Positions 9,828 to 24,275 of a DNA stretch of 64,000 nt are shown here, in pieces. Source of the stretch: Planctomycetota bacterium (lineage in GTDB: Bacteria; Planctomycetota; UBA1135); NCBI GenBank assembly GCA_002705055.1, contig PAHY01000033.1, forward strand, positions 62,001-126,000. Direction: 5' to 3'. The first letter of the stretch is position 1. Every line of letters begins with the position of its first letter. The position numbers and the translations under genes were made by a program. The notes beneath the pieces are model-generated. The model did not search any database. It saw only the letters and a program-made list of their open reading frames with translations, and was not told the origin of the DNA.

Positions 9828-9833
9828 TAGAAT
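9828..9833 (+). promoter_or_regulatory. -10-like hexamer TAGAAT for the MATE leader
   Basis: TAGAAT at this position would start a transcript with a leader of about 115-120 nt before the MATE TTG start. It directly precedes the structured region described in the next entry. Confidence 0.45.
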
Positions 9834-9956
9834 CCCTTCCGCGTCCGAGGTCCCGGAGAGAATCGATGAACTTCTAACCCTGCCCCAGCGGGCATCAGCC
9901 CGCCGCCTTTCCGCTTCCTATTTCGGCCCGGGCAGGGCCACCGATTCACTCTCCGT
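9834..9956 (+). promoter_or_regulatory. Structured 5' leader of the MATE gene (riboswitch-like candidate)
   Basis: Three nested or consecutive pairings are visible by eye. P1 is CGGAGAGAATCG (9854-9865) with CGATT-ca-CTCTCCG (9942-9955), 12 bp with a 2-nt bulge. P2 is CCCTGCCC (9878-9885) with GGGCAGGG (9930-9937). P3 is GCGGGC-ATCA-GCCCGC (9888-9903). P1 ends one base before the TTG start, so folding should control ribosome access. A 3-codon ORF (ATG AAC TTC TAA) lies between the P1 and P2 5' strands. I cannot match it to a named riboswitch class. Confidence 0.55.
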
Positions 9957-11423
9957 TTGACTCACCCCACCACGTACGCCCCCGGTTCGCCGCGCCAGGT
10001 CCTGCACCTCGCCTGGCCGATCGGGGTTTCGATGATCTCCTTCACGCTGAAGGGCTTCATCGACATGCTGCTTGTCGGCCGCCTGGGCATCGAAGCGCTC
10101 GGCGCCGTCGGCCTGGCGTCGGTCATGGCCTGGACGCTGATGTCCTTCCCGCTCGGCATGCTGCGCGGGCAGCGACCGCTGGTCAGCCAGTACTTCGGCG
10201 CCGGCGACCGGATCGCGGCCTACTCCTACGGCATCCACGCCTTCTACCTGGCCGTCGCCTGGGGGTTGCTCAGTCTGCTGCTAGCCGGGCCGGTGGCGGT
10301 GCTGGTCATCGACCTCACCGGCAGCAAGCTCACCGCGGACGCCCGCGGCTTCGCCGTCGCCTATCTGGAAACCCGCCTGGTCTGGGCGGGCGCCTGGCTG
10401 ATGAACGTCAGCGTGGCCGAGTACCTGCGCGCCACCTCGCGGCCGCGTTACGGCATGGCCGCCGACCTGCTGGCCCACCCCACCAACGTCGCGCTGTCGT
10501 GGATCCTGATCTTCGGCCTGTTCGGCATGCCGGCGCTCGGCGTGCAGGGGGCGGCGCTCGGCACCGGCCTCGCCGACCTGCTGGCGCTTTGCCTCATGAT
10601 CTGGCTGGCGCGCCCGCGCAAAGCCACCGAAGGCGAGCCCTGGGCCTACCGCTGGCGGCGCATGAAGAAGGTGCTGGCGACCGGCATCACCGGCGGCGTG
10701 CAGTTCGTACTCGAGTCCGGTGCCTTCGCTCTGATCACTGCCATGATCGGCCTGCTGGGCACGACGGCGCTGGCGGTGCACCAGGCGGCGATTCAGCTGG
10801 TCCACCTGTCGATCATGCCGGCGATCGCGATCGCCGACGGCGGCGCCACCTTGATCGGCCAGTACATCGGCGAGAAGAAACCCGACTACGCCGAGCGTTC
10901 GCTGCACTCGGCCTTGCGGATCTGCGCGATCTTCATGGCCTGCATGGGCGTGGTCTACTTCTTCTTTGGTGAAGAGCTCGTCTCGGTCTTCCTCAAGAAG
11001 GACGAGGTCGACTACGAAGCCGCGCTCGCGCTCGGCGGCAAGGTCATGCTGGCCGCCGCGCTGTGGCAGCTGGGCGACTCCTATCAGGTGGCCTTCCGCT
11101 TCGGCCTGCGCGCCGCCGGCGACCACCACTGGGTCATGTACACCGGCATCCTGTGTTCCTGGGTGCTGTCGGTGCCGCTGGCCTGGGCGGTCGTGCACAT
11201 CTTCGACGGCAACCTGGCGCACGTCTGGTTCAGCTGGACGGCCGAGATCTTCCTGGGCGGCGCGATCTTCTGGTGGCGCTGGAAGTCCGGGGCTTGGCGC
11301 AACAAGCGCTTGGTCGAGGACGAACCCGCGGAAGCCCCCGCCGAGGTGCTCGCCGAACCGATTGCCCCGCTCGCCATGGTCGAGCCGCGCCCGCTCGCCA
11401 ACGAAGAGGAGCGGCAACCCTAA
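9957..11423 (+). CDS. MATE-family multidrug/toxin efflux transporter
   Basis: A 488-residue inner-membrane protein of about 12 transmembrane helices, close to the usual family length of about 450. The N-terminal HLAWPIGVSMISFTLKGFIDML and the GQRPLVSQYFGAGD segment are typical of MATE/NorM cation-coupled exporters. The C-terminal tail is hydrophilic and Glu/Pro-rich. The start is TTG at 9957; no ATG or GTG fits before the first helix. The strongly folded leader suggests control by a small molecule, but the substrate is unknown. Confidence 0.85.
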   Translation: MTHPTTYAPGSPRQVLHLAWPIGVSMISFTLKGFIDMLLVGRLGIEALGAVGLASVMAWTLMSFPLGMLRGQRPLVSQYFGAGDRIAAYSYGIHAFYLAVAWGLLSLLLAGPVAVLVIDLTGSKLTADARGFAVAYLETRLVWAGAWLMNVSVAEYLRATSRPRYGMAADLLAHPTNVALSWILIFGLFGMPALGVQGAALGTGLADLLALCLMIWLARPRKATEGEPWAYRWRRMKKVLATGITGGVQFVLESGAFALITAMIGLLGTTALAVHQAAIQLVHLSIMPAIAIADGGATLIGQYIGEKKPDYAERSLHSALRICAIFMACMGVVYFFFGEELVSVFLKKDEVDYEAALALGGKVMLAAALWQLGDSYQVAFRFGLRAAGDHHWVMYTGILCSWVLSVPLAWAVVHIFDGNLAHVWFSWTAEIFLGGAIFWWRWKSGAWRNKRLVEDEPAEAPAEVLAEPIAPLAMVEPRPLANEEERQP

Positions 11424-19824: not shown

Positions 19825-22050
19825 CTAGTCCTCTTCAGCCTCGGGCGCGACAGGGGTGCACCCGCCATCTTGTGTGACGAGAAAGACGCGAAGCTCGCCA
19901 TTGACCAGGACCCGAACCTGATAGCGCTCGATCGAGACTTCAAGATCCCGGATACTCGCCTCTTTCCCAATTGCTCGGAGCACAGCGGATCGCACCTGAC
20001 TCGGCATCGCTGGCACCGACAATCGTCGTTCGACCTCGACGACGTCGCCGCTCGCGCTGACACGGATGCGATGAAGTTCCGCGCCACGCCTCCCTTCGTT
20101 GAGCCAAAACCGCGCCCCCTTCTCCAACTGGGTTGTCCAACTACCGGGATCAGGCGGATCATCGAAGTAAGCTCGTGCGACCATTTGCACCGACCGTGGA
20201 GGAATGACCTGACTCCATGGGTCTAAGAGACGGCGCAGCTCTTCGAGATCTTCCCCGGGCTCCACTCTCTCAGAACCTAAGAGCATTTGGAATGGGGAGT
20301 CGCCCTCAGAAGTGAGCGCCATTGGATCCGCTCCTCCCCGAATGAGAACAAGCGCCGAGGCCGGCGAAGCATTGCGCTGAAGCGCATAGTGAAGTGCCGT
20401 TCTTCCGTCGTCGCTCCTCGCATGTGGATCTGCACCTGCGTCAAGCAGTGCCTCAATGACTCCAGCCCGCACGAAACTCGACGCTTCCATGAGCGGGGTC
20501 TCACCTCTCTCAGTACGCGCTTCGAGAGGGAAGCCGAAATCCAAGAGCGCCGTCAGGACTTCCAAGTCTTCGCAGTATCTAACCCAAGCATGAAGCGGCG
20601 TGATCCCTCGCGCTGGAGTCGATGGAATCTCGCCCGCATAAGCTAGGAGAAGCCGGACAGCCTCGACTGAATCACTGTGGGCTGCCGCATAAGAAACTGG
20701 CGATTCGAGATCCCCGTACAACCAAAAGGGATCGGCGCCCGCTTCCAAGAGTACGCGCATGGCTTCCAAGGCACCTGCACGAGATGCACATGATAAGGCA
20801 TGGCCAAGCTGGCCACGGCTCCACTCCACTTCGGGGTACGCCATCAACAACGCCTTGAGCAGCTCGCCTTGATGCCGTGCGAGTAAGCGCGACTTACCAT
20901 TCCCTACCCAGCGTTCTGCGTGGGCTGGACGCACGGCATGGAAGACCGAACTGGAGTAATCATCTGCCCCAGCGGACAATGCAGAGGCATGACTATTTGC
21001 CCTGACTCTTGGGTCCGATACACGGCCTGCGAGCCAGGACACGACCTCTGGGCTGTGGTTCGCCCCCATTGCGAGCATCAAGCACGACCAACCGTCTGCG
21101 GTCTTGCTGCCGAAATCCGCACCGGCCTGATGGAGCAACTTGAGAACCTCTACCGACTGCTGGTTCGCGCTTGCCACCAATGCGACAGTCATCCCCTCTT
21201 CTGCCATCTCACGAACCGAAGAGCCGCGGCTTAAGAGCAGTTGCAAGACCCTAGGGTTTGGGTTTGTGGCAGCAGCATGCAAGAGTGGAGTCCAGCCATA
21301 TCGGTCCGTATCGTTCAATTCGCCACCTACCCCAATCCAAAGCGCGACACAATCAGGATTCGGGTTGCTCGAAGCCGCGTGCATCAGGAGAGTCCAGTCT
21401 CTCCCTCCTCCACCCGGCTCAAGATCAGGGCAAGACTCAATCATGGCGGCAGTAATCTCCGGGTCATCCTGGTGAGCTGCCACCAACTCAAGTGCGTCCG
21501 CTCCGATTGCTGAGATCTGATCCACATGGAGGCCCTCGCCCTGAAGGAGCGTGATCACTTCAGCGCTATCGTTCCATGCAGAGGCATATGCAAGTGAGTC
21601 AAGGCCTGCAAAGGGGAACTCGTTCGCGTCCGCGCCTTGGGAAAGTAGTTCGCGAAGAATGCTTGGGTTCGAATTGAATGCCGCGGCGTAGTGCAATGCC
21701 GTGTGGCCAAGCACTCGCTCGCGCATTCGGGCGCGTTCGCCGGACTCCTCCCGAACTCTGACAATTCGCAACAGGCCATCGAGCGAGGGCTCGCGATCCG
21801 AGTTCACCCATGCGTAGATGGAGATGCGATCTTGCGCATTCGGATCCTCTCCCTCCGCGATCAACTTCTGAATCTCCGCCGGGTCATGGGCTTGCGCAGC
21901 CGCGATCATCAGCCGCGTGATTCCAAACCTCGACTCGAGCTCTTCACTCCACGTGACCGAGTCCTGTTGCTGAGAGATCCCCCCATGCTGCCAGCCGTCG
22001 AGGGCGGAGCACGAGAGGGCGAGGATGAAGCTGGAAAGCAGAATCGACAT
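19825..22050 (-). CDS. Exported ankyrin-repeat protein
   Basis: 741 residues with a hydrophobic N-terminus (SILLSSFILALSCSAL) that could be a signal or lipoprotein leader. Many ankyrin units of about 33 residues follow, with phrases such as GHTALHYAAAF, GWTPLLHAAA, GRTALHYALQ and GETPLMEAS, so it is a protein-binding solenoid. The last 120 residues are a separate beta-type domain containing DPPDPGSWTTQLEKG and ending before EAEED. Base composition is visibly less GC-rich than its neighbours and codon choice is less biased, which suggests transfer. A hairpin ends 3 nt before the ATG. Confidence 0.85.
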   Translation of the reverse strand: MSILLSSFILALSCSALDGWQHGGISQQQDSVTWSEELESRFGITRLMIAAAQAHDPAEIQKLIAEGEDPNAQDRISIYAWVNSDREPSLDGLLRIVRVREESGERARMRERVLGHTALHYAAAFNSNPSILRELLSQGADANEFPFAGLDSLAYASAWNDSAEVITLLQGEGLHVDQISAIGADALELVAAHQDDPEITAAMIESCPDLEPGGGGRDWTLLMHAASSNPNPDCVALWIGVGGELNDTDRYGWTPLLHAAATNPNPRVLQLLLSRGSSVREMAEEGMTVALVASANQQSVEVLKLLHQAGADFGSKTADGWSCLMLAMGANHSPEVVSWLAGRVSDPRVRANSHASALSAGADDYSSSVFHAVRPAHAERWVGNGKSRLLARHQGELLKALLMAYPEVEWSRGQLGHALSCASRAGALEAMRVLLEAGADPFWLYGDLESPVSYAAAHSDSVEAVRLLLAYAGEIPSTPARGITPLHAWVRYCEDLEVLTALLDFGFPLEARTERGETPLMEASSFVRAGVIEALLDAGADPHARSDDGRTALHYALQRNASPASALVLIRGGADPMALTSEGDSPFQMLLGSERVEPGEDLEELRRLLDPWSQVIPPRSVQMVARAYFDDPPDPGSWTTQLEKGARFWLNEGRRGAELHRIRVSASGDVVEVERRLSVPAMPSQVRSAVLRAIGKEASIRDLEVSIERYQVRVLVNGELRVFLVTQDGGCTPVAPEAEED

Positions 22051-22053
22051 AAG

Positions 22054-22088
22054 AGAGCCGCTCGAGACGATCTATCCCGAGCGGCTCT
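22054..22088 (-). terminator. 11-bp hairpin between the S8 peptidase gene and the ankyrin gene
   Basis: AGAGCCGCTCG and CGAGCGGCTCT form a perfect 11-bp stem with a 13-nt loop. It lies 22 nt after the peptidase stop and ends 3 nt before the ankyrin ATG. There is no proper U-run, so it may instead mask the ankyrin start. Confidence 0.5.
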
Positions 22089-22109
22089 GATTCTGACAGA
22101 CTTTCTTCG

Positions 22110-24275
22110 CTACGGCAGCACCGTGACGGGAACTGCTTCGCTGACGGTGCGGATGGTCGGGTCGCCGGCGCTGCTCTTGGTGTACATCGCCACCAGGAAA
22201 GTGCGGCCGACCAGGGCGCCGCTGTTGGGGATCTGCAGCGATGCGGTCGCCTCGCCGGCGGCGTTCAGATTGCCCGACATGCCGGGCAGGCCCGCGGTCA
22301 GCGCCCAGTAGGAATCGACCTTCATCGGCAGCGCGTAGCCATCGCCCAGCACGGCGATGTTGGGCAGTCCGGCGCCCGAGATGTGGGCCTGATAGTAGGT
22401 GTTGGGGCGATAGCGCGCTTCGAAGTCGAAGCTGATGGTCGCGCCGATCCGCGGCGCGCCGCCGACCTCGATCCGGGCTTCACCGCTGTCGTACTTGCTC
22501 GACCACGCCACCGCGAAGGGCTCCGTGCTGCCGTCAAAGCGCTGGCTGACAAAGCGGGCCGTGTACAGGCCCGTGCTGCTCGGCGTGAACTTGAGAATCT
22601 CGAAGGGGTTCGAGGCGTTGGCGCTGGATGCCACCGTATTCCCCGCCGGATCGAGGATGACCAGATCCAGATCCATGTTCAGCACATCGGTGCTGTACGA
22701 GGAGTTCGCGGTCGAGAACCACAGGCCGCAGACGCGCACCTCATTCCCCTGCGCGGCGCCGAAGCGCACCTCGTACGCGTTGTTGGCGTTGGCGAAGTCC
22801 GCCGCGCTCAGCATGGCGGTGTGGAAGTTGCCGTCGCGCGCCACGCGGTCGGCGGCGGAGGCATGCACCCCGCCGGCACCGTCGCGCTCCGAGAGCACGT
22901 CGTCGCCTTCGATGTTATGCCAGGCCGAAGCCATCAGGATAGCCTTCACCGCCTCCGGCTGGCCGCGCAGCGCCGGCTCGCGGGTTGCCAGCAGGGTGGC
23001 GACTCCGCAAGTCAGCGGACTGGCCGAAGAAGTGCCACCAAAACCGTTGTAGTAAGTCGAGGTACCAGTGGTGTCGACGTCGTCACCGGGGCTGGCGAGC
23101 TCGGGCTTCTCATGGCCCTCGGCCGGGTCCCAGTACGAGCTGTAGCTGGCCATCGCGTCGTTCGCCCAGCGCGCGTCATTGCTGTCGTTGTACGAACCCG
23201 AGTTGGTCGAGTTGTAGCCGTTGCCCGGCGTCGTCGTGTACGGCGTCGAGGAGTTGCCCTGGTTGCCGGTCGACTTGAACATCATCACGCCGAAGTTGCG
23301 GATGGTGTAGTCGAAGTAGCGGTCGAGGTAGACGATCTGTCCCTTGCTGCCGTTCCACCACGAGCAGTTGCCGAAGTCGATGCCGTTGTTGATCGCGGCG
23401 TTCCAGCTTGCGGGGGCGCCGCTGTCGCCGGTGCCATCCGCGCTGTAGATCTGTGGCAAGCCATAGGCGGCGCCGCGCAGGCTGCCGTCATCCATGGCGA
23501 TGTTGCCGGCGCAGGCGCTAGCATGCGAACCCACCGCGCCGTTGCCGTAGATCCAGATCACTGGCGGAAGATAGGGGTTGTTCTTGGTGACGTGGTCGGG
23601 GTCGTTGACCATCGTCTTCACCGGCGAGTTCGCCGCCGTCAGGCCCGATGCCCAGACCAGCGGGGTGCGCAGCGTGCCCTGCGCGTGCTCCTGCTCGGTG
23701 TACACCTCGGGGAAACAGTAGTAGGCCTCGTCGACCAAGGCGTGCCCGGCCGCGCGCCGCACCTCGCCCACCGGAAGCTCGACGTAGACCACCGGCCAGG
23801 CGGCGAGCAGTTGGGTCACGTTCCAGCCCTGCTCCCGGCAATGCTGGGCGAAGTCCGCGGTGCGCGCGGCGAACCAGGCCTCCGCGGCATCGCGGGCGTC
23901 GCGGCGCGCCTGCTCGACGCCCGCTCCGCCGGCCACCCCCGCATTAAGGATCGCGCGCCAGTCGGGGGCGTCCTCGCACTGCAGCCAGAACACCACCTCG
24001 ATGGTCTCGTCATCGCTGCGCTGCGCCAGCTGATCGAGCAGCTCCGGGGCCAGCTTGCCGTTCTGCTCCTGCCGCAGCCGATGCTCGGTCCGACGGAGCT
24101 GATCCACGTCCACCTCCATCCCATGCTGGTCGAGCGCGCGACGACGCACCAAGCCCACCTCGGGGTCGAGCCAACGCTGCTCCACGACGCTCCGCCCGAG
24201 CAGCGGAAACTCCCAACGCTGTTCAAGCAGCGGCTCCTGCTGGGCAAGGGGAAGGAGAATGAGGGCGGCAAACAT
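22110..24275 (-). CDS. Secreted subtilisin-like serine peptidase (S8)
   Basis: 721 residues with a short N-terminal signal (MFAALILLPLAQQ), a charged propeptide-like region to about residue 170, a peptidase domain, and a C-terminal beta region. The catalytic His block reads VGSHASACAGNIA, the oxyanion Asn is in FKSTGNQGN, and the Ser block is GFGGTSSASPLTCGVATLL. The Asp block is not canonical: MVNDPDH stands where a D-T/S-G motif is expected. The family cleaves extracellular proteins. It is divergent from the second SASA esterase and has TATTCT 8 nt before ATG. Confidence 0.85.
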   Translation of the reverse strand: MFAALILLPLAQQEPLLEQRWEFPLLGRSVVEQRWLDPEVGLVRRRALDQHGMEVDVDQLRRTEHRLRQEQNGKLAPELLDQLAQRSDDETIEVVFWLQCEDAPDWRAILNAGVAGGAGVEQARRDARDAAEAWFAARTADFAQHCREQGWNVTQLLAAWPVVYVELPVGEVRRAAGHALVDEAYYCFPEVYTEQEHAQGTLRTPLVWASGLTAANSPVKTMVNDPDHVTKNNPYLPPVIWIYGNGAVGSHASACAGNIAMDDGSLRGAAYGLPQIYSADGTGDSGAPASWNAAINNGIDFGNCSWWNGSKGQIVYLDRYFDYTIRNFGVMMFKSTGNQGNSSTPYTTTPGNGYNSTNSGSYNDSNDARWANDAMASYSSYWDPAEGHEKPELASPGDDVDTTGTSTYYNGFGGTSSASPLTCGVATLLATREPALRGQPEAVKAILMASAWHNIEGDDVLSERDGAGGVHASAADRVARDGNFHTAMLSAADFANANNAYEVRFGAAQGNEVRVCGLWFSTANSSYSTDVLNMDLDLVILDPAGNTVASSANASNPFEILKFTPSSTGLYTARFVSQRFDGSTEPFAVAWSSKYDSGEARIEVGGAPRIGATISFDFEARYRPNTYYQAHISGAGLPNIAVLGDGYALPMKVDSYWALTAGLPGMSGNLNAAGEATASLQIPNSGALVGRTFLVAMYTKSSAGDPTIRTVSEAVPVTVLP

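Follow-up and report, generated by a model that had tools for sequence, protein, structure and literature searches.

A folded leader with a three-codon upstream ORF ahead of a Planctomycetota MATE exporter gene: a candidate element of translational control

The leader and its genomic context

The window (the whole 64,000-nucleotide stretch analysed here) comes from assembly G000 (3.85 Mb), whose closest named relatives are uncultured Planctomycetota. It carries a gene for a MATE exporter, a protein whose nearest solved chains are Aq128 and NorM, and this gene is preceded by a leader, on the other side of which lies a divergent gene (Table 1). The TTG at 9957 is the sole in-frame ATG, GTG or TTG from the upstream in-frame stop to the conserved core of the MATE protein. 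Bacteria use TTG as a normal, if less frequent, start codon, and inspection of the sequence ahead of it revealed no Shine-Dalgarno (SD) sequence, either in the window or in L003, the homologous leader described below. A TAGAAT element upstream of the leader, pointed out by an earlier reading made from the sequence only, is indeed found there; no recognisable -35 precedes it, and the putative promoter at 9828-9833 is placed by its -10 element alone. On the minus strand, between 9780 and 9830, a TAGGAT about 10 bases before a GTG marks a possible divergent leaderless start, and the GTG gene encodes a signal-peptide-bearing protein with weak GldB similarity, below the Pfam cut-off. No intrinsic terminator was found in the leader. 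It is present in a single copy in its genome and is absent from plasmids, and we thus rejected its interpretation as a repeated or mobile element.

Table 1. Features of the leader and of the MATE gene (window positions)
Feature	Position	Strand	Basis and remarks
-10 promoter element TAGAAT	9828..9833	+	Putative, from conserved position; L003 has TAGGAT there
P1 5' strand CGGAGAGAATCG	9854..9865	+	Predicted minimum free energy (MFE) fold; holds the mini-ORF SD
Mini-ORF SD GGAGAG	9855..9860	+	Within the P1 5' strand; ensemble pairing 0.95-1.0; L003 has AGGAG at this position
Three-codon upstream ORF (mini-ORF) ATG AAC TTC TAA (MNF, stop)	9866..9877	+	Sequence; stop 9875-9877
P2 domain	9878..9937	+	8 bp, 9878-9885 with 9930-9937; starts directly behind the mini-ORF stop
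P3 hairpin GCGGGC-AUCA-GCCCGC	9888..9903	+	6 bp, 9888-9893 with 9898-9903
Short element CC-UAUUUC-GG	9917..9926	+	Sequence conservation only; CCC-UAUGUUUC-GGGG in L003; outside the window MFE fold
P1 3' strand	9942..9955	+	MFE fold; 2-nt bulge A9948-C9949; ends one base ahead of TTG 9957
MATE exporter gene	9957..11423	+	TTG start without own SD; Pfam MatE 2.3e-43, TIGR00797 3.4e-59

Predicted fold of the leader

The MFE fold of 9834-9956 (-47.3 kcal/mol) reproduces the nested three-stem architecture proposed in the sequence-only reading, i.e., a P1 of 12 bp with a 2-nt bulge (9854-9865 with 9942-9955), an 8-bp P2 and a 6-bp P3. P1 ends on its 3' side at 9955, with a single base left ahead of the TTG, and the three-codon ORF lies in the 5' part (9866-9877), as that reading had also described; the TTG is located 19 nt downstream of P2. 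Its claim of a strong structure held only in part. The fold has a z of -2.99, with one of 200 shuffles equally good, but 55% of the 123-nt segments of this GC-rich window are at least as stable and the L003 leader, taken in full, is no more stable than its own shuffles (z = +0.17). Taken alone, the stability of the leader fold is modest evidence. The top fold of the plus-strand scan lies elsewhere, at 22018-22140 (z -4.7 to -5.4), where a long GC-rich hairpin sits between two minus-strand genes, for an ankyrin-repeat protein and a subtilisin-like protease; it is probably a terminator-like intergenic hairpin.

At the gathering threshold, the Rfam search of the window returned tRNAs only. Under permissive settings, the best weak match was mir-554 (24.3 bits, for a threshold of 100), which we attribute to chance because it is far under the threshold, on the other strand and from a microRNA family. 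Hence the Rfam comparison, one of the checks put forward with the original description, gave no family match, whether strict or permissive.

Conservation of the leader among MATE orthologues

Our family sample comprises 26 genomes, with incomplete assemblies, and a MATE orthologue was found in 24 of the 25 others. Among these orthologues, a similar leader precedes the gene only in G008 (L003, also L042). The L003 MATE protein belongs to a different genus and is 63% identical to that of the window. The gene upstream is a co-oriented membrane-protein gene in L003 and the divergent gene in the window; since these neighbours differ, the leader appears to travel with MATE. Its conservation ahead of an orthologue from another genus, despite a different upstream gene, supports its reading as a structured, MATE-specific cis-regulatory leader. 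This is the part of the earlier riboswitch-like description that stands, while ligand sensing is unsupported. In G008, a direct repeat of about 30 bases (CCCTCTAGCACCGGCCGGCTGGT, L042:2209-2265) lies where the gene preceding MATE ends and takes in the stop codon of that gene.

The window and L003 leaders share, in the same order, TAGRAT; GGAG; ATG followed by two codons and a stop; ACCCTGCC; P3, with six pairs in both; CTATnTTTCGG; GGCAGG; and TTGACT, the TTGAC at the MATE start being also found in L005, a third orthologue. Their global similarity was matched by none of 3000 dinucleotide shuffle pairs, and their best local score in 47 of 3000 shuffles. The P2 core (CCUGCC/GGCAGG) is present in both, and L003 has an extra segment of about 25 nt inside P2. 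The search for covariation that had been suggested bears on these two homologues only: the P3 of L003 (GCGGAC-CUCG-GUCCGC) does carry one compensatory change, from G-C to A-U, but the P2 core is invariant, one such pair is equalled in 243 of 500 shuffle controls, and two sequences cannot reach significance. The covariance model R1 and its pair counts come from an edited L003 row, with the insert removed and Ns added, and are fit for searching, not for covariation counts. P1 is conserved neither in sequence nor in register between the two leaders; as both its letters and its register differ in L003, we rejected P1 as a sequence-conserved helix.

Pattern and covariance-model searches of a 392-genome phylum sample gave no credible leader match. 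Among the other pattern matches obtained at the class or phylum level, the P2 partner was missing at the proper spacing or the match fell inside an open frame; the other model matches were weak, lay mostly within open reading frames and did not precede MATE genes. Two further genome contig scans revealed no new leader-bearing relatives, and DNA BLAST with the L003 leader returned chance-level matches only.

These results bear directly on the possibility of a ligand-sensing riboswitch, in which a metabolite or drug would bind P2/P3, stabilise or open P1, and thereby switch MATE translation. Such a device would fit a structured leader ahead of an exporter, the conservation of the P2/P3 core and of the UAUUUCGG stretch, and an SD held in P1, as in translational riboswitches. 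However, we consider it very doubtful, given the lack of any Rfam match, the existence of two members only among the 26 family genomes and of no credible one in the phylum sample, the single compensatory pair, the lack of a conserved aptamer-like junction beyond P2/P3, the segment added inside P2 of L003, and the fact that L005, the closest clade member besides L003, is devoid of the domain altogether.

The mini-ORF and its pairing with the MATE start

The mini-ORF starts with ATG and has exactly three codons in the window, in L003 (ATG CGC GTC TGA, MRV) and in L005 (ATG ATC GCC TAA, MIA). The peptides MNF, MRV and MIA have nothing in common except Met. In the G000 genome, SD-driven three-codon ORFs number 12, as compared with 9 for a reversed-pattern control, so that a genome-wide habit of such ORFs, not clearly enriched, was rejected. 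As they are rare, the placement of the mini-ORF at the orthologous position in both genomes is more likely to reflect shared ancestry under constraint than chance. Of all parts of the leader, we regard the three-codon ORF, touched on only briefly in the sequence-only reading, as the one that is conserved best and tells most.

We also compared the predicted pairing of the mini-ORF SD with the MATE start region in each leader against 300 shuffles in which only the stretch from the mini-ORF stop to the MATE start was permuted. This pairing reaches 0.99 in the window (null mean 0.22, 0/300 shuffles) and 0.97 in L003 (null mean 0.15, 2/300 shuffles), and it is made with different letters, i.e., GGAGAG/CUCUCC and AGGAGU/GCUCUU, respectively. 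In the predicted folds, the helix that holds the SD borders the TTG of the window and covers that of L003. What is conserved, as modelled, is thus the relation between the mini-ORF SD and the MATE start region, and not the letters of P1. Judged on the sequences, conservation, through the global similarity and this retained pairing, is better evidence than fold stability.

The leader could also be an inherited, non-functional, GC-rich stretch common to two related genomes, whose fold would be a by-product. Indeed, a z of -3 or below is found in 1.7% (27/1558) of the 123-nt segments of the window, and the fold of the L003 leader is unexceptional. We nevertheless hold this to be unlikely, because the SD, the mini-ORF frame, P2 and P3 persist where the proteins are only 63% identical, and because the SD still pairs with the start region although the letters differ.

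Mini-ORFs across the MATE clade

In the maximum-likelihood tree, the window, L003 and L005 fall in one starred MATE clade (97/92), in which L003 pairs with L005 as its sister (98/86). L005 lacks the domain and reads ATG ATC GCC TAA GAA TTG, with 3 nt from the mini-ORF stop to the TTG. Given this sister placement, the ancestor of the clade probably carried the domain, with a loss in L005, or else the domain arose twice.

More broadly, an ATG mini-ORF, or an apparent one, ends at positions -8 to +5 of the MATE start in 11 of 24 relatives, for 2.0 expected when the 60 bases upstream of MATE are shuffled, a count inflated by relatedness, with seven of the eleven coming from two genera of one subclade. 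At least one of the eleven, that of L009, may instead be the tail of a gene lying upstream. The mini-ORF stop overlaps the MATE start in L004, L006, L007, L010-L012, L014, L017 and L018. In L004, L006, L007, L010, L011 and L014, the mini-ORFs have exactly eight codons, with differing peptides and a TGA overlapping the ATG or TTG of MATE; in L009 and L013, the MATE start shares an ATGA with a reading frame that enters from upstream and may be a real gene in each. If the coupling proposed below is right, it would suggest that this MATE family commonly relies on coupled translation.

A possible mechanism of translational control

We propose, with a probability of about one half, that the leader is a translational control element that couples MATE to the mini-ORF, a coupling which the domain would close or bridge. 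The strong SD would load ribosomes onto the three-codon mini-ORF, whose stop abuts the P2/P3 domain, and the MATE TTG would depend on ribosomes delivered from there. When P1 is formed, the mini-ORF SD and the bases before or over the TTG would be held in one helix and both starts would be off. A ribosome on the mini-ORF would open P1 and free the TTG, and MATE would then be started by the terminating ribosome or by a newly bound one, P2/P3 staying folded and shortening the distance. In this scheme, we infer the translation of the mini-ORF, its necessity for MATE, and the bridging of P2/P3 rather than its melting.

The computed support consists of the parts themselves, their conservation in L003, the SD-to-start pairing found twice, the adjacency of stop and start in L005 and the mini-ORF overlaps in the family. 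The linear gap from the mini-ORF stop to the MATE start is 79 nt in the window and 100 nt in L003, and it would be bridged only with P2 folded. With no SD at the TTG and a coupling that fades as the distance grows, ribosomes would have to reach this start otherwise than by a simple 79-nt scan. Against coupling stand the presence of the domain in two leaders only, the unremarkable whole fold of L003 and the unconserved P1 register. The delivery of ribosomes by short upstream ORFs is an established idea in bacteria, and in a library screen, a structure right behind the stop codon lowered coupling (PMC12548453). Since structure placed there reduces coupling, the domain may serve, by analogy, to damp MATE translation.

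The same parts could be assembled differently. In a translational attenuator of the erm/cat type, an antibiotic or starvation would stall the ribosome on the mini-ORF, P1 would stay open and MATE would be induced. In the predicted folds, the leader ORF does have an SD of its own and a helix blocks the region of the downstream start, with a multidrug-type exporter behind. On the other hand, the MATE start thus freed has no SD, so that no downstream SD is sequestered, the three peptides are alike only in Met, and three residues are very short for a stalling peptide; we find this quite unlikely.

Programmed bypassing would have the ribosome hop from codon 3 over the domain into the MATE frame and produce an N-terminally extended protein. 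A TTC in the MATE frame (9945-9947) repeats the third codon TTC, L003 has GTC then GTT, at a different distance from the TTG, and the third codon is followed by a stop, like the take-off codon of T4 gene 60 (PMC11194080). However, the chance of matching codons in both leaders is estimated at a few percent, gene 60 needs a long nascent peptide, its sliding drops beyond 56 nt for a gap of about 70 nt here (PMC11194080), and L005 offers no gap to hop, which makes bypassing highly improbable.

A last, speculative and rather improbable option, drawn by analogy, is a bacterial counterpart of ribosome shunting, in which a ribosome would end the three-codon ORF, cross the folded domain without unwinding it, and start at a non-AUG codon. 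In that case, L005 would represent a natural form that does without the domain and has its stop and start next to each other.

Comparison with known systems

The erm and cat translational attenuators possess a leader ORF with its own SD, a helix closing the downstream start and a gene of the resistance type, all of which recur here, with the differences that the helix hides the SD of the leader ORF itself, that the downstream start has no SD, and that the ORF has three codons only. The guanidine-IV riboswitch is found before MATE exporter genes. Our leader differs from it (PMC7736828) in matching no Rfam family of any kind.

As in T4 gene 60 bypassing (PMC11194080), a stop lies right behind the possible take-off codon, a hairpin occupies the gap and a matching codon, a possible landing site, is found downstream; unlike it, the leader has no nascent-peptide signal, a longer gap and an alternative start codon. 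With the ribosome shunt of plant pararetroviruses (PMC5902531), it shares a short upstream ORF ending before a stable stem, a start just behind, which is non-AUG, and a peptide whose sequence is not conserved. The window has the corresponding geometry (stop at 9875-9877, P2 from 9878, then the TTG), and this is a matter of geometry only; the viral process involves eukaryotic cap-dependent scanning and a much larger stem-loop, and no bacterial case of shunting was found in the literature searched. We would thus speak of resemblance, not of membership.

With the short-upstream-ORF coupling described in bacteria (PMC12548453), the leader would share a short ORF that takes up the ribosome and hands it on to a gene lacking its own SD, and the overlap of stop and start occurs in our relatives; what differs is the folded domain of 79-100 nt between stop and start in the window and L003. 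We file the leader as a new version of short-ORF translational coupling or attenuation. If this is right, ribosome delivery by a tiny upstream ORF and sequestration of the start site would be joined in one compact leader, and the natural series formed by L005, which has no domain, by the window and L003, which have one, and by the relatives with overlapping stop and start would allow one to test the crossing of the domain by a post-termination ribosome.
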